A DNA stretch of 64,000 nucleotides from Flexibacter flexilis DSM 6793 (GTDB lineage Bacteria > Bacteroidota > Bacteroidia > Cytophagales > Flexibacteraceae): the NCBI RefSeq assembly GCF_900112255.1, contig NZ_FOLE01000012.1, positions 1 to 64,000 on the forward strand. Direction: 5' to 3'. Below, in pieces: positions 25,321 to 64,000 of the stretch. Position 1 is the stretch's first letter. Each line of letters opens with the position of its first letter. Made by a program: the position numbers and the translations under genes. The notes under the pieces are model-generated. The model had not been told where the DNA came from, did no database searches, and worked only from the letters and a program-made list of their open reading frames with translations.

Positions 25321-27783
25321 TTATTTTTTTCTTTTTTTGCTAAACAAACCAAATAATTTTTGATACCAAGTTGCTGGTTTTTCAAAATAGCTATAACCAT
25401 AATCATAACCATAACTTGTATATCCATAGCCGTAACCAGCCATTTTCTTACCAATATCATTAATTACAATACTGATATTTTTGACTTTTTTCTCCACGTA
25501 CAACTCATTAATCTTTTTCAAAAATGATTTACGTGTATAATTATGTCGAACAATATAAACACCCGCGTCAATAAACGGACTAAGAATAAACCAGTCAGCT
25601 AACAAGCCAAGTGGCGGAGTATCTATAATAACGCATTCGTAATCTTCACGAAGGCGATTAATTAGCTCTTCCATCGCGGGCAGTCCTAATGTTTCGGCCG
25701 GGTTAGGAGGAATAGGCCCAGCAGGCAGTACATATAAGTTACTGAATTTCGTAATCTGTACCGATTCGTCGTAAGTTGACTGCCCTGTCAAATAAGTGCT
25801 CAACCCTTTTGATAAATCAAGACCCAATTCTACTTCATACTTAGGCTTACGCAAATCCGCCATAATGACAACCGTCTTTTTTCCCGCCAGAGCAAACACC
25901 GCTCCCAAGTTCATAGACAAGAATGTTTTACCTTCCCCACTAACCGAGGAGGTTACTCCTATTACTTTATGTTTTTTGTCAGGAGCAAAATAGGTCAAAT
26001 TCAGGCGTATAGAACGAAATGCCTCTGTGATAACAGACTTGGGATTATCATTCACCACCAGATAATCACCGCGTGTATTGTGGCCAATCAGCCCCAAAAT
26101 AGGGATACGCGAAATTCGCTCCACATCTTTTTTGCTTTGTAACTTATCATTCAATAGCATCATCAGTACCACAACTACAATCGGGAAAAGTAAACCCGCT
26201 AAAGCAGCAATGGCATAAATCTGTACTTTTTGCATACCAACAATAGTTGCATTTTGAGGCTTAGCGGTACTGATAACATTCACGTTAGGCGTAGTACCAG
26301 CTTTGGTCATGCCGATTTCTGTTCTTTTTTGAAGTAAAAAAGTGTAAATATTATCGTTGATTTTCAAGCGTCGCTCTATACTCAACTGTTGCCTTTCTTT
26401 ATCTGGTAAAGACAAGATTTGAGATTCGGCTTCCTTATAATTCTCATCTGCATTATGTAACTGCAAGCTGAGCATTCTAAGGTCATTCTCAACTACTTCT
26501 AATATTTGTTGCCTTAAAAAAACTATCTTTTGTTTGTATGAAATAATCGGCTTGTTATCATCATTTTGATAAAACTTTTTTTCCCTAAGTTTTGAAGAAA
26601 CACTCAACAACTCATTGATTAAGTTTGTCATGAGAGGCTCATCAATCCCCAACATTGCAGGAGCTACTATTTGATCAATAGGGTTATTACCCGAAAGGTA
26701 TTTTTTTAGATACAAATAATACTGCTGCCTTGTCTTTAAATGCTCTTTTTCCTTATCAAATCCCTTTAACTCAGAAAAAGCTTCAGCACTCATCTGTGAT
26801 ACACTCATAGATTTATTGAATTTCCGAAAACCGTCCAATTCGCCTTCCGTAGATTTCAAAATAGTTGAGACCTGAGCTAGTTGATCATCAATAAAATTGA
26901 CAGTATTAGACAAAGATAAATTGCGCTCTCTCATATCATTGACCGCATAGATAGCCATAAGCGTATTTATAATGTCAACTATTTTTTGAATATGAGGCCC
27001 TTTAATTGATATATTGATCAAATTACCGCCCTTTTTAGTTCTTTCAATTAGCAAAGTAGCGGCAATTTTTTCTGAAAGTTTTACTTTATCATGAATAATA
27101 AAGCAATTACGGGTCTTTTCTCCCAATTGTTTAGGAACCACTAAATTTGGCTGAATAAGCAGAAAAGAGCTATCCATAGCATATTTATGCCCCAAAAACA
27201 TTGCCTGATTTTTAGGCAATGTCTCTCTTTCTACAAATGTGCTGGTGATATGATTAAATACTAAGTTCTCACTATCAACAAGCAAATACTCGTTGTTAGA
27301 AACAGGCTCATAGTACAACAGTTTATTTACGAGCACACTCGGAATTTGCTCAAAATCAGTGGTAACTACATAAGGAGCATCTTTATACAATTCTAACCTA
27401 CTTAATTGGCCTTGAGCAAAATACGACACATTTAACTTGAGCGAATCAATCACCTGCTCTACCATTTGAGCAGATGTTAATTTAGCTAGTTCATTATCCA
27501 TACCGCCCCCGCCACCTAAAGAAATACCTTCTTCATCTATCAGTGCCTCTAAATCAAAGCTGCGTTTCTGCTGGCTCTTGAACATCACACTCGTACTTAC
27601 TGAATAAGTTGGAACGAGGTATTTATTATATATGTAAGAAGCTACTAGTGCTATTAGCACAGAAAACAACACATAATACCATATGTCATAGATTTTAAAT
27701 AATAGAGCTTTAAAATCAAAGCCTTCGTCTTCTTGTTGTTGAAATGTACTCACTGGTTTATTGAATGTTGATTTGGGGTGCAA
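25321..27783 (-). CDS. Wzc-type polysaccharide co-polymerase / BY-kinase
   Basis: 820 aa inner-membrane protein. A first membrane helix (about 35-55) is followed by a Wzz-type periplasmic domain with long coiled coils, a second helix near 520-540, and a cytosolic BY-kinase domain with Walker A VSGEGKTFLSMN (near 615), Walker A' VIMADLRKP and Walker B CVIIDTPP. The C-terminus is a tyrosine cluster GYGYGYTSYGYDYGYSY, the expected autophosphorylation tail. It controls chain length and export of capsule or exopolysaccharide. It heads the polysaccharide operon. No wza or wzy gene is seen in the window. Confidence 0.93.
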   Translation of the reverse strand: MHPKSTFNKPVSTFQQQEDEGFDFKALLFKIYDIWYYVLFSVLIALVASYIYNKYLVPTYSVSTSVMFKSQQKRSFDLEALIDEEGISLGGGGGMDNELAKLTSAQMVEQVIDSLKLNVSYFAQGQLSRLELYKDAPYVVTTDFEQIPSVLVNKLLYYEPVSNNEYLLVDSENLVFNHITSTFVERETLPKNQAMFLGHKYAMDSSFLLIQPNLVVPKQLGEKTRNCFIIHDKVKLSEKIAATLLIERTKKGGNLINISIKGPHIQKIVDIINTLMAIYAVNDMRERNLSLSNTVNFIDDQLAQVSTILKSTEGELDGFRKFNKSMSVSQMSAEAFSELKGFDKEKEHLKTRQQYYLYLKKYLSGNNPIDQIVAPAMLGIDEPLMTNLINELLSVSSKLREKKFYQNDDNKPIISYKQKIVFLRQQILEVVENDLRMLSLQLHNADENYKEAESQILSLPDKERQQLSIERRLKINDNIYTFLLQKRTEIGMTKAGTTPNVNVISTAKPQNATIVGMQKVQIYAIAALAGLLFPIVVVVLMMLLNDKLQSKKDVERISRIPILGLIGHNTRGDYLVVNDNPKSVITEAFRSIRLNLTYFAPDKKHKVIGVTSSVSGEGKTFLSMNLGAVFALAGKKTVVIMADLRKPKYEVELGLDLSKGLSTYLTGQSTYDESVQITKFSNLYVLPAGPIPPNPAETLGLPAMEELINRLREDYECVIIDTPPLGLLADWFILSPFIDAGVYIVRHNYTRKSFLKKINELYVEKKVKNISIVINDIGKKMAGYGYGYTSYGYDYGYSYFEKPATWYQKLFGLFSKKRKK

Positions 27784-27906: not shown

Positions 27907-29268
27907 TTAAGCAACACGAAAACCAATAACCATAATGTCATCTATTTGAGAGTAACCCTCTTTCCATTGCTCTATTGTTTGGTCAAAAATAGCACATTGT
28001 TCATCAAAAGCTCGCTGATGAACAAGCATTACTAACTCCTTAAATTTTTTAGACATAAACTTCCGATTGTCTTTTCCGCCAAACTGATCCACATAACCAT
28101 CTGAAAATAAATAAATGTAAGTATGTGGCTCTATTGGCAAAATAACATCGGTAAACAATCGTTCATCTTCCATTTGTAGGCCACCAATCGAATGTTTGTC
28201 AGCTTTATACTCCTGCAGCTCATTATTTTGGATTAACAACAAAGGTCTGTTTGCACCTGCGTACAAAATTTGTTGTTTTTTGGTGTCCACACAACATAAA
28301 GCGATGTCCATACCATCACGATTTTTACTGTCCGCTTGGTCTTGTTTTAGGGCTTTACGTACCCCGATATGCAGTTTGCGCAACACTTCGGCTGGCGTGA
28401 TGTGTTGCTTCTCGTTTACAATCTGGTTGAGCAAGGTATTACCAATCATAGACATAAAAGCACCTGGCACACCATGTCCCGTACAATCCACTGCCGCAAT
28501 CCATGTCATGTCTTCTTTATGCATAAACCAATAAAAATCGCCACTTACCGTGTCGCGTGGTTTGAACAGCACAAAAGAATTTGGCAAATATTGCTGAATT
28601 ACCTCCAAAGAAGGCAAAATGGAGTCTTGAATACGCTTTGCGTAATTAATGCTGCTGGTAATATTGCGCGTTTTTTCCTGCAACTCGTCTTTTTGCTTAT
28701 TGATTTCTTCATAAGCCTTTTCCAAGTTTTCGTTTTGCGCCGAAATTTCCTCATAAGCCAACTGCAATTTGAGTTTTTCTTCCCTCAAATCAGCAGTACG
28801 CTCTTCCACCAAAGCCACCAATTGCGCTTCGCGCTGCTTGAGGCTTTCAATAATCGAATTATTTTGATTTTTGATACGACTAATCAGCAAGCGAATCAGG
28901 CCTTTGGTAACCTCTATGCGGTCGGCCATGATGCGATAAAAGTCATCTTGGTCCAAACGCAATAGCATGGTAGTTTCTACGGCGGTTACCGAAGCTGAAC
29001 GCGGTTCAGGATTCAGCAATGCTAATTCACCAAAAATTTTACTATTGCCCACATGCGCAATGGTATGTTCGCCATCATGTACTTTTACCAAACCGTTATA
29101 AATGATATACATACAGTTGCCTTGGTCGCCCTTGCGAATAATATTTTCGTTTGGGGCAATTTCTATCTCTTTCAACGCATGAGCCAAAGCCTCTAACACT
29201 GTTTCGGGTGTATCCGAAAACAGTTCTACTCCTCGTAGCATATTAATTTTATCGGCAATGAGTATCAT
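27907..29268 (-). CDS. SpoIIE/PP2C phosphatase with cyclic-nucleotide-binding domain
   Basis: 453 aa, cytosolic. Residues about 14-130 form a cNMP-binding domain whose phosphate cassette FGELALLNPEPRSASV (79-94) has the Glu81 and Arg90 expected to contact the ribose and phosphate of cAMP. A coiled coil (about 135-215) links it to a SpoIIE-type PP2C domain (about 230-453) with the metal acids in VSGDFYWF, AAVDCTGHGVPGA, FSDGYVDQFGG and QIDDIMVIG. It should dephosphorylate a Ser/Thr-phosphorylated partner, probably an anti-sigma-antagonist-like protein, under cyclic-nucleotide control. It lies downstream of the adenylyl cyclase gene at 29972 on the same strand. Confidence 0.92.
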   Translation of the reverse strand: MILIADKINMLRGVELFSDTPETVLEALAHALKEIEIAPNENIIRKGDQGNCMYIIYNGLVKVHDGEHTIAHVGNSKIFGELALLNPEPRSASVTAVETTMLLRLDQDDFYRIMADRIEVTKGLIRLLISRIKNQNNSIIESLKQREAQLVALVEERTADLREEKLKLQLAYEEISAQNENLEKAYEEINKQKDELQEKTRNITSSINYAKRIQDSILPSLEVIQQYLPNSFVLFKPRDTVSGDFYWFMHKEDMTWIAAVDCTGHGVPGAFMSMIGNTLLNQIVNEKQHITPAEVLRKLHIGVRKALKQDQADSKNRDGMDIALCCVDTKKQQILYAGANRPLLLIQNNELQEYKADKHSIGGLQMEDERLFTDVILPIEPHTYIYLFSDGYVDQFGGKDNRKFMSKKFKELVMLVHQRAFDEQCAIFDQTIEQWKEGYSQIDDIMVIGFRVA

Positions 29269-57232: not shown

Positions 57233-60200
57233 TTATTTGTTCGTAGCCGCAGGCCTTATTTTTTTGCCCTTTTTCTCAACTACTTCTTCTACTTTTTTGC
57301 GGAAAGAAAGTTTGTTGCGCCATTTCTCTGGAAGTTTAATGGCCGATAGTTTATCTACCAAAACGCCAGCCTTATCCAACAGTTTTTTGAGCGATTCTAA
57401 GTACAAAGTAAAGTACAAGAACAACGACATTAACCAAACTACAACAATGTTAAAGTAGTAAGTATCAAACACTTTACCGAAAAATGGTTTTTCGGGCGCA
57501 AAGAAATGCGTACGATAATCTATCGGCAAACGTAACATATTTGGCTCGTTGTAAACTGGGTCAACTTGCTGCACGATATGATTATTAAACTCAATAAACT
57601 TATTTTTCGTACTTACGTTGCGCACCAAATCCGAAAGACTTTCATTGAAATACTTGTTTTTCAGCTCTGTAAGTGAATATTTGGTCGTTGGCTTAGCCTC
57701 GTATTTACTCAAAAGTTCGTCTTTCTTCGCGTTAGCTTTGTTATAACGCTCCGTGTAATACACGGCGGCTTCGTCGATGTACACACGCAACACGCTGGCC
57801 GTTGCCGTATTGAATTTTTCGGGCGAAAGTTCGTGTTTCAAATCCATGCCTTTGGTGAATTTCACCAATTTATCCGAATGCAACGCATTATACAAAATCG
57901 TCAATTCTTTCGCCACTTTTTCGCGCGTCTCAGCGTCTTTAGCCTGATAGTTGGCCGAGCAATAATTCAGTTTACTAATCAGTTCAGGCAACAAATACGT
58001 TTGGTAATAATTGGCTACGCTTTCTGCTTTTTCTACCTTAAAAATAAGGTCTTGGTAAGTATTGTTTTTGAATTGTTGTACGGTAATCGCTTCAAATCCC
58101 CAACGCGATGCCGTAAAATCGGCCAACAATGGCACGCGGCCTTTGGCACTTACTTGGTCGTTGAGTTTATCGAAATTGAAAATCGCACCGCTCAAAATCA
58201 TTTGCGGAATGAGCAAAAGCGGAATGATAATGTAAATCGTAACCGCCGAATTGAAAGTAGCCGAAATATTGAGACCCAATATGTTAGCAAAACAAGACGT
58301 AGTGAAAAGCACAAACCAATACGTGAACGTCATGCCTTCGATGTCCAGAATGTAATTGCCCAACAACACGAATGTAAGCGTTTGTACACCCGACAGCAAG
58401 AACAAAATTGTTACTTTGGATAATAAATAACTGGTTCGGCTCAGGTTCAGGAACTTCTCACGGCGTTGAATTTTTCGGTCGCGAATAATCTCTTCCGCAC
58501 TCACCGTCAGCCCCATAAACAAGGCCACAATAATGCTGATAAGGATAAACGCAGGAATGTTATCGTTGTAACGGAACACATAATCGCCCGAATCTGGCGC
58601 GTTGCGGAAGCGAATAATAAACGCCAACAAAAACGCCAACAAAGGAGCTTCCAACAAGTTGATGAGCATGTATTGCGTGTTGGTAACTTTACTCAAAAAG
58701 TCACGAATCGTAAACACCGCAAACTGCACAAATTTCGATGGAATATTGAGCGATTGCGGTGGCGCATCGGCCACATCTTCGCGTTTTTCTATCTTAAAGT
58801 TTTTGGCATAAAGCTCGTGCCATTGGCTCGGCGTTACTTTGCGGGAGTTCGTAAACTGCCCGTATTCGTCCACAACCAACGCTTCCACGATATTGAAAAC
58901 CTGTTCGGGGTTTACGTTACCGCAAGTCGGACACTGGCCTCTGTCGCTGTCGATTTGGTTGGTCGTAGTCTTGAAATAAGTAACCGCCTCCACAGGATTG
59001 CCGTAGAAAATCGGGAAACCGCCCGTATCAAGCAAAAACAGCTTGTCAAACATTTTGTAAATGTCCGATGAAGGCTGGTGAATTACCACAAAAATCAACT
59101 TTCCTTTGAGGGAAAGTTCCTTGAGCAAATCAATTACGTTTTCTGAGTCGCGCGACGAAAGACCAGAAGTAGGTTCGTCCACGAACATCACGGCAGGTTC
59201 ACGAATCAACTCAAGTGCAATGTTAAGGCGTTTGCGTTGTCCACCACTAATTTTTTTGTTCATCACATTGCCCACCGTGATGTCTTTGATGTGCAACAGT
59301 CCCAAACTGGCCAACGTATGTTCTACTTTTTTGACTATTTCCGCTTCGGGCAAGTCTTTAAAGCATAGTTTGGCATTATAATAAAGGTTTTGGAAAACGG
59401 TCAGTTCTTCCAACAAAATATCATCTTGGGCAATATAGCCGATAATGCCTTTAATGCGGTCGTCGGCCTGATGGAGATTGATGCCATTGATAAGCACTTC
59501 GCCCAAGCTTGGTTTTTCGATACCCGCCAACACATTGAGCAAAGTCGTTTTGCCCGCACCACTACCGCCCATAATGGCGATGAGGCGGCCTGCTCCTTCC
59601 GAAATATTTATATCGCGCAAACCTATCGCGCCGTTCGGGAATCGGAACTCTAAGTCATTAACATTAAACGAAAGGTTATTGGACTTAGCATCGCTCATAA
59701 ATTTATTCACCACATCGCTATAGTACAAAGGCGCACCTTTCGAGGCCTTAATGATACTACCATGAGAATACAAGTAAATGCGATGCGGAGCCACCGTAAA
59801 GCCGTTGAGAGAGGTTTCGCTATGCCCCGTGTATTTGACGAAATACATATCCTCGCTCTTGATGAAAAGGAAGATTATTTCCCCATCAAGTTTCTCAGAA
59901 TGAATATGTTTGGCAAATTGGAGGGGTGCGGTCTCGCGGCTATCGGCAATGAGTATATCACTATAATCAAGTTGCGAAATTTCTTCTTGTACCACAAAAC
60001 TTTCAATCATTTTATACTCTTCGTTTCGGATATTAAAAACGTCCGAAACTGTATCAATGATTTGCATACGCTGTGGCGTAAAGTTTTTGTCAATGGCTAC
60101 GAGTTCGAGCAACTTTACGAGTACGATAAATTTTTGCTTTTGGGTAAGAGTCTTGTTAATTTTCTTACAAATACCCAATGTTTTTACAGAGTCTTTTACG

Positions 60201-60433
60201 GACGTGAGCTTGCGTTTTTTGCCTTCTGCACCTTCCTCAGCAGAAGCCTCTTCTTCTTTTCCTTCTTCTGCAAATTTATCATAAAGTGCAATATACTCTT
60301 TTACAGCATCGTGCGCGAGTTGCTGCTGAAAGTATTGCAATACAAAATTTCTTTCTCGTTCTGTTACCCCGCCGTCCTGTTTGGTAATAATGGCAAACAG
60401 CTGGGTCAGGGCTTTGAGTATTTCTTCACTCAT
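57233..60433 (-). CDS. TerB-like domain fused to an ABCG-type ABC transporter
   Basis: 1,066 aa half-transporter. Residues about 1-140 form a TerB/DjlA-like helical domain (LFAIITKQDGGVTERERNFV). A small beta region (about 150-255, SDVVNKF, resembling an FHA segment) leads to the ATPase: Walker A GGSGAGKTTLLN (near 290), signature ISGGQRKRLNIALEL, Walker B VMFVDEPTSGLSS, H-loop VIHQPSSD. A CPTCGN zinc-ribbon-like motif lies near 505. At least six membrane helices follow (about 585-800, 1010-1030), with a long soluble domain before the last. White/ABCG-like exporters move lipids or drugs; the substrate is unknown. Confidence 0.88.
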   Translation of the reverse strand: MSEEILKALTQLFAIITKQDGGVTERERNFVLQYFQQQLAHDAVKEYIALYDKFAEEGKEEEASAEEGAEGKKRKLTSVKDSVKTLGICKKINKTLTQKQKFIVLVKLLELVAIDKNFTPQRMQIIDTVSDVFNIRNEEYKMIESFVVQEEISQLDYSDILIADSRETAPLQFAKHIHSEKLDGEIIFLFIKSEDMYFVKYTGHSETSLNGFTVAPHRIYLYSHGSIIKASKGAPLYYSDVVNKFMSDAKSNNLSFNVNDLEFRFPNGAIGLRDINISEGAGRLIAIMGGSGAGKTTLLNVLAGIEKPSLGEVLINGINLHQADDRIKGIIGYIAQDDILLEELTVFQNLYYNAKLCFKDLPEAEIVKKVEHTLASLGLLHIKDITVGNVMNKKISGGQRKRLNIALELIREPAVMFVDEPTSGLSSRDSENVIDLLKELSLKGKLIFVVIHQPSSDIYKMFDKLFLLDTGGFPIFYGNPVEAVTYFKTTTNQIDSDRGQCPTCGNVNPEQVFNIVEALVVDEYGQFTNSRKVTPSQWHELYAKNFKIEKREDVADAPPQSLNIPSKFVQFAVFTIRDFLSKVTNTQYMLINLLEAPLLAFLLAFIIRFRNAPDSGDYVFRYNDNIPAFILISIIVALFMGLTVSAEEIIRDRKIQRREKFLNLSRTSYLLSKVTILFLLSGVQTLTFVLLGNYILDIEGMTFTYWFVLFTTSCFANILGLNISATFNSAVTIYIIIPLLLIPQMILSGAIFNFDKLNDQVSAKGRVPLLADFTASRWGFEAITVQQFKNNTYQDLIFKVEKAESVANYYQTYLLPELISKLNYCSANYQAKDAETREKVAKELTILYNALHSDKLVKFTKGMDLKHELSPEKFNTATASVLRVYIDEAAVYYTERYNKANAKKDELLSKYEAKPTTKYSLTELKNKYFNESLSDLVRNVSTKNKFIEFNNHIVQQVDPVYNEPNMLRLPIDYRTHFFAPEKPFFGKVFDTYYFNIVVVWLMSLFLYFTLYLESLKKLLDKAGVLVDKLSAIKLPEKWRNKLSFRKKVEEVVEKKGKKIRPAATNK

Positions 60434-60514: not shown

Positions 60515-60547
60515 AAAAAAAATGCTACTATTAAAAGTAGCTTTTTT
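60515..60547 (-). terminator. Terminator of the siaC-like gene
   Basis: Stem gctact / agtagc flanked by A and T runs on both sides, 29 bp past the stop at 60576. Confidence 0.8.
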
Positions 60548-60575: not shown

Positions 60576-60938
60576 TTAATAGGTTTCAAATTCGAAAGGA
60601 ATTTCTACCAATTCCGAGAATTCTTGACCTGCTTCTTCCATATCTTCGTCATCTTCATGGAAATACCAAACCACGCTGGCATTATCCACATCTTCCAATT
60701 TAGAAAGAATATCTAAAATAAGTTTAGATGAGGCTGTGTTAAAGTATTCAAGTTTGAAGACGAATTTAGTCTCTGAATTAGGGCCATCGCTATATTTTTC
60801 AAGCCAGTCTAACACAGGTTGATAAAATTCGGCAGTATCTTCAGGAAGTGAACGGCCAGATATTTCAAAAATACCATTTTTGCTATCTAAGATGATTTTG
60901 GGGGTATCCTCCGTACCTTCAAGGCTTATGATTTCCAT
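60576..60938 (-). CDS. SiaC-family regulatory phosphoprotein (DUF1987)
   Basis: 120 aa, a STAS-like substrate of a partner-switching system. The phospho-acceptor motif NTASS lies at 67-71, with Thr68 at the position of the phosphorylated Thr68 of Pseudomonas aeruginosa SiaC. The DUF1987 features ISGRSLPEDTAEFYQPVLDW (27-46) and VVWYFHEDDEDMEEAG (93-108) are conserved. In Pseudomonas the unphosphorylated form binds the diguanylate cyclase SiaD. No SiaD gene is seen here. It lies 48 bp downstream of the SiaB-like kinase on the same strand. Confidence 0.9.
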   Translation of the reverse strand: MEIISLEGTEDTPKIILDSKNGIFEISGRSLPEDTAEFYQPVLDWLEKYSDGPNSETKFVFKLEYFNTASSKLILDILSKLEDVDNASVVWYFHEDDEDMEEAGQEFSELVEIPFEFETY

Positions 60939-60986
60939 ATATTATAAAAGATTTTTTTGTCGAAAAATAAAACCGTAGCTTAACTA

Positions 60987-61538
60987 CTAGTCCAGAGCTT
61001 TACGTGAAATAGTGGTTTTGAGCGAGAAGAAAAACACATTGTTTTCCAATGGTTCGAAGTCGTATTCAAGTTTTTGTCCAGACTTACGCGCCATATCAAC
61101 AAAACCCAAACCAGCACCTCCTTTATCCGAAAGGTCTCCGTTTTTAATAATTTCTTTGTACAAAGCCTTCAGACCTTCTTTGTCTAAGCTATTAATTTCG
61201 TCGAGTTTGTTGCGAAGCAAATCTACTTTATCACCTTTGATAGGGTTACCAGAAGTAATAACATAGTCGTCGTTTTCTTTTCCTATCATAAAGATAGCAC
61301 TGTTTCGCATATCAACAACAGCAGAAAACTCGTCGGCGTGCTTAACAATATTTTGTAAGCATTCCACCATCACGTTAAACACTTTACGTTTAATGCCCGA
61401 CTCTTCCCCAATGGAATCCATATTACGCTCAGCCATCGAAAGGACAGACTTGGTAATCTCTTGGGTGAATTCACCTTCGTAAACCAGCATCAACTTTCTG
61501 GATACCATGGTTTTGTGGAGTTCATAAATATATTTCAT
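60987..61538 (-). CDS. SiaB-family protein kinase (DUF6272, GHKL fold)
   Basis: 183 aa. GHKL ATPase fold: N-box NVMVECLQNIVKHA (near residue 55-68) and G-box DKGGAGLGFVDMARKSG (about 138-154). SiaB phosphorylates SiaC on Thr and so opposes SiaA. The order SiaA, SiaB, SiaC on the minus strand matches Pseudomonas. The start at 61538 gives MKYIYELHKTM. The gap to the phosphatase gene upstream is about 147 bp. Confidence 0.9.
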   Translation of the reverse strand: MKYIYELHKTMVSRKLMLVYEGEFTQEITKSVLSMAERNMDSIGEESGIKRKVFNVMVECLQNIVKHADEFSAVVDMRNSAIFMIGKENDDYVITSGNPIKGDKVDLLRNKLDEINSLDKEGLKALYKEIIKNGDLSDKGGAGLGFVDMARKSGQKLEYDFEPLENNVFFFSLKTTISRKALD

Positions 61539-61685
61539 AGACGCTTGATTTGGGAGCTTATTTATTTTACTGCATCATTAAGTTCTTTAATCGAACAAAC
61601 TTGGCCGTGCAATATATCATTTCGAGGCCAATATTATAAAGTTTTTGTGGAAAATAATTTATTTTTTTCAAGTTTATTTCAAGAA

Positions 61686-64000
61686 CTATAATCTGATACC
61701 AATCATCAGAACGTCGTCGGTTTGTTTTCCATCACCTTTCCATTCTTCAAATTCTGTATCATAAATATTAGATAGTTCCATCATTGGTTTGCTGCCATTA
61801 TTTTGCAATATCTCGCGAATGCGTTTTGGCGAAAACTTGCGATTATCCCTGCCACCGAATTGGTCTGGGAAGCCGTCGGAGCAGAATACCAACACATCAC
61901 CATCGTTGTAATCAATAGTTCTTGTCGCGAAATTCGAGCGGTTTTTGTATTGGCCACCACCGATAGGGAACTTATCTCCTTTGATTTCTTCCAACTCACC
62001 ATTAGCCGACAAGTAATAAAGCGGACGGTGCGCACCCGAAAACTGCATTTGACGAGTCGTTTTATTGATACGGCACAAGGCAATATCCATACCGTCACGC
62101 GTGGCACTATCGCCACCATCTTGGCGCAATGTTTTGGTTACGGCTTCATCAAGCGAATCTAAAATAGTACCCGTATCCGAGAAATCTTTCAATACGTTGT
62201 TGAGCAAGAAATAACCAATCAACGAAATCAAAGCACCCGGTACGCCGTGTCCCGTACAGTCCACTGCCGCAATAAAAATATCATCATCTTTTTGCAAGAA
62301 CCAAGGGAAGTCACCACTCACCACGTCGCGCGGTTTGTACAAAATAAACGAATCAGGGAACGTGTATTGTATCGTTTCGTTGTCTGGCAAAATGGCCACC
62401 TGAATACGTTTGGCGTAGTTAATACTTTCCGTAATTTTCTTGTTTTTGGTCTGAATCTCCAATTCGATGAGCTTACGTTCGGTAATATCATGCGATACAA
62501 GAAGCACCGATTCAAGGCGTTGCTCTTCGTTATATTCAGGAATGGCACTTACGTGCATCATTCTATTGCCCATGAACGAATTGAAATCAATTTCGGTCGC
62601 AACTTTATCTTGTTTTTCAAGCACTTGGTCAATAATGTTGCGCCAAGCCTCCAACAAGCCGCCTTCCAATGATGTTTCATTGATATTGGTACGCAACAAA
62701 TCACTTGGTTTCACACCTGTATATTGTTCGATTACAGGGTTGATATAGAAGAACTTCCCTTCTTTATTTACGCGCGTAATAAGGTCGGGACTATTCTCAG
62801 AAAGTGCCTGCATTTGGCCACGCATACGCGACTCTTTCTCTGCTCTGCGTCGTTCGGTAATATCGCGAGAGTTCACTACGATACCTTCAATAGCAGGATC
62901 GGAAAGTAAGTTTGTACCAGTCGCTTCCAACCAAATACGTTCTCCATTTTTGCGCATATAGCTAAACTGAATCGTAATGGTATGGTCTGGGTCAGCCATA
63001 AGGTCTGCGAACATTTTATCAACAGCAGCCACACCTTCTTCATGCACATATACAATGTCTTTGATGCCAATCATCTCCTCTGGACGATAGCCCAAAATCT
63101 TCTCTACCGAAGGGCTGATATAACGAATAGTTCCGTCTTCTTCGTAGATAGTAATAACTTCGGAAGCGTTTTCCAAAAGCACCTGCATACGTTTTTGGGT
63201 GCGATTTACCTCTTCGATTTGTTCTTCTAATTGAATGTTAGAACGCTTCAACTCTTCTTGTGTCGCAGCCATTTCCTCTGCATTTTGGCGCAACTCTTCT
63301 TGTTGTTGTTGCAACTCAAAACTCATCTTTTGTGATGCGGCCAACAAGTTACGAGTACGTTCGTTTACCTGAATATTGAAGATGGTACGCGCAATGATTT
63401 GGCTAATCTCTTGTACAAAACGTACCTGAGCAGGTGCAAAACGCTCAAAACCAGCCAATTCCAACACGCCATTTACTTCTTCGTTGGTAATAAGCGGCAC
63501 AATAAGGATACAGCTCGGACGGCGGTCGCCAAGCAAACCTGACGTAATACTCACATAGTCATAAGGAATTTCGGTGCGCAAAATTGTATCTTGCTCAATG
63601 GCAGCTTGCCCGACAAGGCCTTCACCAAAATTAAATTTAGCAGATAAGTATTTCTTTTTATTGTATGCGTAGCTTGACTTCAGCTCAATAGACGTTTTGC
63701 CGTTTTCCTGTCTGTCCACTACATAAAACGCGCCTTGTATTGCCCCAACTTTATTGGTAATAAAAGAAACGATTTCGTCGCCTAAGCTGGCAATTTCATT
63801 GTGTCGGCGCAAAATTTCGCCAATTTCGGCCACCCCGCGAACAATCCAGTTACGTTCATCATCACGTTTGGAAGCATCTTGAAGGCTTTGGCGCATGTTC
63901 ATCAACGACACGCCCAAAGTATCGCCTTCGCTCATTGGCTTAAAGTCAGCCTGAAAATCACCTTCCCCGATTTTGTGCGCAAAGTTGGCTGTACGTTTCA
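61686..64000 (-). CDS. SiaA-like HAMP-GAF-PAS-PAS-PP2C phosphatase (5' end beyond right edge)
   Basis: The frame stays open past the ATG at 63935 to the window edge, and the added codons (KRTANFAHKIGEGDFQADF) read as the end of a HAMP domain, so the start and probably a membrane sensor domain lie off-window. Residues are counted from 63935: GAF about 40-195, coiled coil to 255, PAS about 260-370 (YISPSVEKILGYRPEEMIG), PAS about 380-490, PP2C/SpoIIE about 505-749. The metal acids lie in VSGDFPWF, AAVDCTGHGVPGA, CSDGFPDQFGG and QTDDVLMIG. It should dephosphorylate the SiaC-like protein. Confidence 0.93.
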   Translation of the reverse strand, partial: KRTANFAHKIGEGDFQADFKPMSEGDTLGVSLMNMRQSLQDASKRDDERNWIVRGVAEIGEILRRHNEIASLGDEIVSFITNKVGAIQGAFYVVDRQENGKTSIELKSSYAYNKKKYLSAKFNFGEGLVGQAAIEQDTILRTEIPYDYVSITSGLLGDRRPSCILIVPLITNEEVNGVLELAGFERFAPAQVRFVQEISQIIARTIFNIQVNERTRNLLAASQKMSFELQQQQEELRQNAEEMAATQEELKRSNIQLEEQIEEVNRTQKRMQVLLENASEVITIYEEDGTIRYISPSVEKILGYRPEEMIGIKDIVYVHEEGVAAVDKMFADLMADPDHTITIQFSYMRKNGERIWLEATGTNLLSDPAIEGIVVNSRDITERRRAEKESRMRGQMQALSENSPDLITRVNKEGKFFYINPVIEQYTGVKPSDLLRTNINETSLEGGLLEAWRNIIDQVLEKQDKVATEIDFNSFMGNRMMHVSAIPEYNEEQRLESVLLVSHDITERKLIELEIQTKNKKITESINYAKRIQVAILPDNETIQYTFPDSFILYKPRDVVSGDFPWFLQKDDDIFIAAVDCTGHGVPGALISLIGYFLLNNVLKDFSDTGTILDSLDEAVTKTLRQDGGDSATRDGMDIALCRINKTTRQMQFSGAHRPLYYLSANGELEEIKGDKFPIGGGQYKNRSNFATRTIDYNDGDVLVFCSDGFPDQFGGRDNRKFSPKRIREILQNNGSKPMMELSNIYDTEFEEWKGDGKQTDDVLMIGIRL

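Follow-up and report, generated by a model that had tools for sequence, protein, structure and literature searches.

A 64,000-nucleotide stretch of the Flexibacter flexilis DSM 6793 genome (C12:1-64000, hereafter the window; genome 4.25 Mb in 48 contigs, 99.84% complete) carries, at one end of its minus strand, a SiaABC-like phosphorylation switch, and the genome contains no SiaD, the diguanylate cyclase that serves as the output in Pseudomonas. In Pseudomonas, this phosphorylation switch controls cyclic dimeric GMP (c-di-GMP), the biofilm messenger. We read the window system as a switch that works independently of c-di-GMP, and hold with moderate confidence that its output is most likely the activity of an exporter with TerB, FHA-like and ABC domains, encoded directly downstream of siaC. 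The exporter is a likely and testable target because the switch travels with it and with two secreted proteins across the relatives of F. flexilis, and part of PMC3908365 is cited on the side of this reading.

A SiaABC-like switch without SiaD

The three genes run on the minus strand as SiaA-like phosphatase, SiaB and SiaC, matching the A-B-C order of Pseudomonas. The siaC-like gene (60576..60938) encodes a 120-residue phosphoprotein of the SiaC (DUF1987) family (PF09345, E 2e-40), which matches the solved SiaC structures 6kko, 6kkp and 7e6g in the PDB at E 8e-14 and keeps the phosphosite Thr68 in a YFNT site, numbered on the window protein itself. Among SiaC proteins from loci with the ABC gene, the site is Thr in 76 of 79 and Ser in 3 of 79. 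The siaB-like gene (60987..61538, minus strand) encodes a 183-residue member of the GHKL-type Ser/Thr kinase family DUF6272 (PF19788, E 7e-44). It scores 182 bits against the NCBIfam SiaB-family kinase model NF038262 (cut-off 85), matches the SiaB chain of 6kko at E 2.5e-14, and has E59, Q62, N63, H67 and the box G141-A-G-L-G145 invariant or nearly so over 92 homologues. Only the 3' part of the siaA-like sensor phosphatase lies in the window (61686..64000, minus strand; GAF, two PAS and SpoIIE, the last at E 8e-21); the whole gene reaches contig position 65168 and encodes 1160 residues arranged as dCache-TM-HAMP-GAF-PAS-PAS-SpoIIE/PP2C, where TM is a transmembrane segment. The PP2C acids D953, D970, D1028, D1098 and D1151/D1152 are present, judged by reading the motifs and not by formally aligning the protein with SiaA of P. 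aeruginosa. The NCBIfam SiaA model NF038263 covers only the PP2C part of this protein, and the three proteins fall short of the NCBIfam equivalog cut-offs (SiaA 178.6 against 700 bits, SiaB 87.1 against 225, SiaC 83.7 against 150).

An earlier note on this DNA, made from the sequence letters, had named the three genes in their Pseudomonas-like order, the Thr68 motif, the GHKL boxes of SiaB, the metal acids of the phosphatase and its GAF and two PAS domains. The order is borne out by Pfam and NCBIfam profiles, the DUF1987, DUF6272 and SpoIIE searches that it proposed gave the values above, the residues are those just listed, and the region right of 64000, where it looked to a membrane sensor, supplies the dCache and HAMP domains of the SiaA-like protein. 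Its reading of a SiaABC-like switch is supported; its interpretation as a whole holds in part.

Whole-genome searches found 0 GGDEF and 0 EAL matches in the 99.84% complete genome; run on control genomes, these searches gave matches in 8 and 6 of them, respectively. An off-window cyclase beside the cluster was looked for, and the 12 kb past the window end contain no GGDEF gene. As the whole genome lacks both GGDEF and EAL, the statement that there is no SiaD is valid genome-wide, as the earlier note had supposed, and a SiaABC-like switch without SiaD is better supported than the window alone allowed. The note's further remark that c-di-GMP enzymes are scarce in the phylum fails for our phylum sample, in which GGDEF occurs in 157 of 296 genomes (SiaC in 18 of 296), and stands for the window's own class, in which GGDEF is rare. 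A conventional SiaABCD system with an overlooked GGDEF cyclase working in trans has some precedent, since true SiaC-SiaD pairs are present elsewhere in the phylum and, in Bacteroidota relatives outside the class, siaC is directly followed by a gene for a GGDEF protein (L142-L144). The genome-wide searches nevertheless largely refute it, as does the lack of GGDEF in those class members of the phylum sample that bear SiaC, and we consider it very improbable.

A conserved ABC exporter gene next to siaC

The gene downstream of siaC (57233..60433, minus strand) encodes a 1066-residue protein with TerB, a predicted FHA fold, an ABC ATPase and an ABC-2 membrane half-transporter (Pfam TerB, ABC and ABC-2; PF00005 E 1e-29, PF01061 E 3e-18; best subfamily TIGR00955), and is the candidate output of the switch. 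The earlier note had left the target of the switch open, which was half right: this exporter adjoins the switch and is a conserved partner of its branch of SiaC in hundreds of genomes.

Scanning 84,980 named species genomes yielded 80 SiaC loci; 79 of them, picked by similarity to SiaC profiles headed by the window protein, were scored. Their sources include Cytophagales, Marinilabiliaceae, Salinivirgaceae, other Bacteroidales, metagenome-assembled genomes (MAGs) of Flavobacteriales and one MAG labelled Chlorobiota. SiaB lies directly upstream of SiaC in 74 of the 79, and the ABC gene lies directly downstream of SiaC on the same strand, with gaps of 11-316 bp, in 68. The full order comprises nine genes, namely CheR, CheB, TM-GAF, PP2C, SiaB, SiaC, ABC (typically about 1030 residues), a lipoprotein (about 304) and a small secreted protein (about 145), and 46 of the 79 loci have all nine in order. 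The window locus retains CheR through ABC; its CheR (66702-67526), CheB without receiver (66072-66677) and TM-GAF (65212-66075) genes lie off the window on the minus strand, upstream of the SiaA-like gene. Further families of the class have an alternative, convergent layout, in which SiaB-SiaC faces ABC-Sec145-Lip304 (L188, L190, L191 and others). In several families of the class, putative lipoproteins of one protein family, about 270 residues long and with a lipobox-like Cys near the start followed by 'DTETQSA.DN', are encoded directly upstream of siaB (L188:3301-4119, L189:4100-4906, L192:3587-4420, L194:4891-5727, L195:5219-6046 and L197:4698-5621).

Presence of the two genes is also correlated across genomes. 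Exactly 5 of the 296 genomes of the phylum sample encode the ABC head (the window genome, G049, G146, G186 and G045), and all 5 have SiaC and lack GGDEF; G049, G146 and G186 belong to the same family, probably Cyclobacteriaceae. Family f2 of that sample has both genes in three genomes and neither in four. Within the class sample (n=395), about half of which carries SiaC, ABC and SiaC occur together in 189 genomes, ABC alone in 9, SiaC alone in 24 and neither in 173 (phi 0.84), counts that ignore relatedness.

The predicted model of ABC residues 1-254, built from 46 homologues, has a predicted local distance difference test score (pLDDT) of 89.8. For its second half, FHA entries fill almost all of the top 50 Foldseek rows, the best at E 1.7e-3, which exceeds 1e-3, with probability 1.0; the VIA Z scores of FHA rows are about 7, and 6.2 for 6cah, the second FHA domain of Rv1747. 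The scores are moderate and agree consistently, and we take an FHA fold at the ABC N-terminus as predicted. The model of the conserved lipoprotein (pLDDT 82.6) had no PDB match with E < 0.3.

Several observations weigh against the exporter as target. The relatedness of the genomes counted and the way in which the 79 loci were chosen both bear on the figures above. The pairing is not one to one, as shown by unequal copy numbers: three ABC paralogs occur with one SiaC, and up to 11 SiaC occur with a single ABC head (G298, G339 and G453, family f54), so that most of those SiaC copies must have other partners. In the window itself, the ABC gene lies 142 bp downstream of siaC, behind a terminator-like hairpin and T run (60524..60541, minus strand; GCTACTTTTAATAGTAGC ATTTTTTTTA) found by a consensus scan, a call that by itself is no evidence of function, and the genes for the lipoprotein and two secreted proteins are on a separate contig, C6. 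Finally, of the residues through which FHA domains bind phosphothreonine, the FHA-like domain in the 46 ABC head sequences conserves only Asn-Gly (N210, G211), and neither Gly-Arg nor Ser-x-x-His. The domain was considered as a reader of the SiaC phosphothreonine and, with its fold supported and its binding residues not conserved, that role is not claimed.

Some of these points suit another explanation, in which SiaC has an unrecognised target elsewhere, for example a kinase, a sigma factor or an anti-sigma factor, and the ABC protein, lipoprotein and secreted protein share no more than the locus with it and have a function of their own. The hairpin would fit this, as would the many SiaB-SiaC pairs that have neither ABC nor stalk genes beside them (the stalk is described below) and the 24 of 395 class genomes that have SiaC alone; several of these are incomplete and others are complete, and the ABC protein is therefore not the sole SiaC partner. 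Against it stand the co-occurrence of ABC with SiaC and the two different layouts that both keep them adjacent, and we regard a separate function as rather unlikely. A search for SiaC-ABC gene fusions found 0 in 98 loci, the sole long SiaC protein being a stalk-membrane fusion. The window genome has two further TerB-FHA-ABC paralogs (L175:4919-7987 and L176:6571-9609, on contigs C9 and C6), neither of which adjoins siaC; one adjoins a lipoprotein of the same family.

The SiaD-like stalk and the SiaC tree

In P. aeruginosa, SiaD offers SiaC a helical stalk; binding takes place around S50/Q54 and S82/Q86, and Thr68 of SiaC fits between the helices of this stalk (PMC8457831). A motif of this kind, with the consensus Y..LL......[IVL][SG]D..Q.KL, is found in genes adjoining SiaC in other Bacteroidota. 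A 48-residue profile of it finds a single PDB match with E<1, P. aeruginosa SiaD (7e6g), and hits this protein at the two sites where the crystal structure shows SiaC bound; SiaD still ranks top (E 0.01) when the profile is built without diguanylate cyclases. Eight seeds of the profile are SiaC neighbours, and most later matches are not. Strong matches occur in 14 of the 296 genomes of the phylum sample, and 13 of these 14 are among the 18 that bear SiaC; many of the stalk genes in this sample adjoin SiaC. The stalk heads GGDEF proteins, class III cyclases, histidine kinases, a PP2C and membrane anchors, and also occurs as stand-alone peptides of 77-99 residues.

In genomes of the phylum outside the window's class, the stalk precedes class III nucleotide cyclases and histidine kinases at L150-L155, L159-L161 and L163-L168, in many cases next to siaC. 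Stand-alone stalk proteins directly follow siaC at L147, L149 and L162, and may be decoys or adaptors. At L200 and L201, tandem SiaB-SiaC pairs precede small membrane-anchored stalk proteins, with CheR, CheB and PP2C genes near.

These findings raise the possibility that the window switch targets, in trans, a protein with such a stalk, in the way that SiaC targets SiaD. The sole recognisable stalk in the window genome is that of a fusion on contig C8 (L046:8152-9126, C8:171151-172125), a 324-residue protein with SiaC, a SiaD-like stalk (SISDRLQ), a coiled coil and membrane helices, which is possibly a self-regulated membrane form of SiaC. Both the profile's recovery of SiaD at its two SiaC-binding sites and the co-occurrence of stalk and SiaC argue for such an arrangement, and the C8 protein has its SISDRLQ beside the coiled coil and the membrane helices. 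The proteins of the window operon, however, have no stalk: they were considered as SiaC-docking candidates, and a maximum-sensitivity profile search gave no match better than E of about 0.1. The probable Cyclobacteriaceae genomes with the operon (G049, G146 and G186) have SiaC and no stalk anywhere in the genome. In addition, the P. aeruginosa SiaC interface residues D29, Y31, R103, L107 and D114 are consistently changed in ABC-linked SiaC, to R29, L31, D103, A107 and I/L114. We consider action in trans on a stalk quite improbable for the window switch.

A tree of SiaC proteins, which rests on few columns and has long branches and many open forks, groups P. aeruginosa SiaC with stalk-linked proteins (support 95/89) and places the window SiaC in a clade of 82 rows, of which 72 are ABC-linked and 0 stalk-linked (support 98/88).

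Proposed mechanism

Under the exporter reading, SiaB would phosphorylate SiaC at Thr68, and the membrane sensor phosphatase, with its dCache, HAMP, GAF and two PAS domains, would strip this phosphate when its signal is present. The adjacent CheR, CheB and TM-GAF proteins would possibly modulate the sensor phosphatase. One phospho-form of SiaC (we infer that a single form acts, in one direction or the other) would dock directly on the ABC half-transporter, at its cytosolic TerB-FHA head, and gate the export of a putative substrate, and the conserved lipoprotein and the small secreted protein would work across the membrane, on its far side. Methylation of the phosphatase coil by CheR was considered and is no more than a guess: the strict motif occurs in just 3 of 68 phosphatases, and its window counterpart, AATQEELKRS, is one position off.

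More tentatively, and with somewhat less than even confidence, we suggest that SiaC serves generally as a docking protein under phosphorylation control and has two or more types of receptor. The portable stalk, set before diguanylate cyclases, class III cyclases, histidine kinases, phosphatases and membrane anchors, would be one type; a second would be the TerB-FHA head of a new family of ABC exporters, which would be the main output in the c-di-GMP-poor class of the window, the phosphorylation switch there directly gating an exporter.

Other switch components in the genome

The genome has five SiaC, three SiaB and nine SpoIIE phosphatases, and only the window set unites all three. The other SiaC copies are on C2 and C7, each with a SiaB neighbour, on C1, alone, and in the C8 fusion. 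The phosphosite of the paralog on C2 (L045:9303-9710) carries Ser and not Thr (YFNSSS). The window also encodes another SpoIIE-type phosphatase (27907-29268, minus strand). Judged from the translation, it has an apparent N-terminal region resembling cyclic-nucleotide-binding domains and adjoins a gene resembling those for polysaccharide chain-length proteins and tyrosine kinases (25321-27783).

Relation to known systems

Like SiaABCD of P. aeruginosa, the window system has a PP2C sensor phosphatase, a DUF6272 kinase and a SiaC with Thr68, encoded in the order A-B-C. Unlike it, it has no SiaD cyclase, the next gene being that of the ABC exporter; its sensor is of the dCache-HAMP-GAF-PAS-PAS type, with only the PP2C part aligning to the NCBIfam SiaA model; and its SiaC belongs to another clade and scores far below the equivalog cut-offs. 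The exporter resembles Rv1747 of M. tuberculosis, which likewise has an FHA fold at the N-terminus of an ABC-2 type half-exporter and whose gene lies next to that of a Ser/Thr kinase, PknF. The window protein differs in its additional TerB domain and in its single FHA-like domain, which lacks the usual phosphothreonine-binding residues. Also in contrast to Rv1747/PknF, the window kinase is a GHKL switch kinase that presumably acts on SiaC, and not of the Hanks type. As in the HptB-HsbR-HsbA-HsbD and Bgr systems, a phosphatase, a kinase and a small STAS-like phosphoprotein would control an output by binding (PMC8457831, PMC7647112); the outputs there are diguanylate cyclases, whereas the window genome has none.

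The open-access papers searched, subscription journals lying outside the scope, yielded nothing relevant on SiaC-, SiaB- or DUF6272-family proteins or on a TerB-FHA-ABC transporter in Bacteroidota, and no description of the exporter partnership or of a stalk shared with other enzymes. To our knowledge, the only demonstrated function of SiaC (DUF1987) is that of an activator of a c-di-GMP synthase. The exporter partner and the stalk-bearing partners would resolve an orphan signalling family into specific and testable binding pairs, and the exporter partnership would tie an exporter of Bacteroidota to Ser/Thr phosphorylation.

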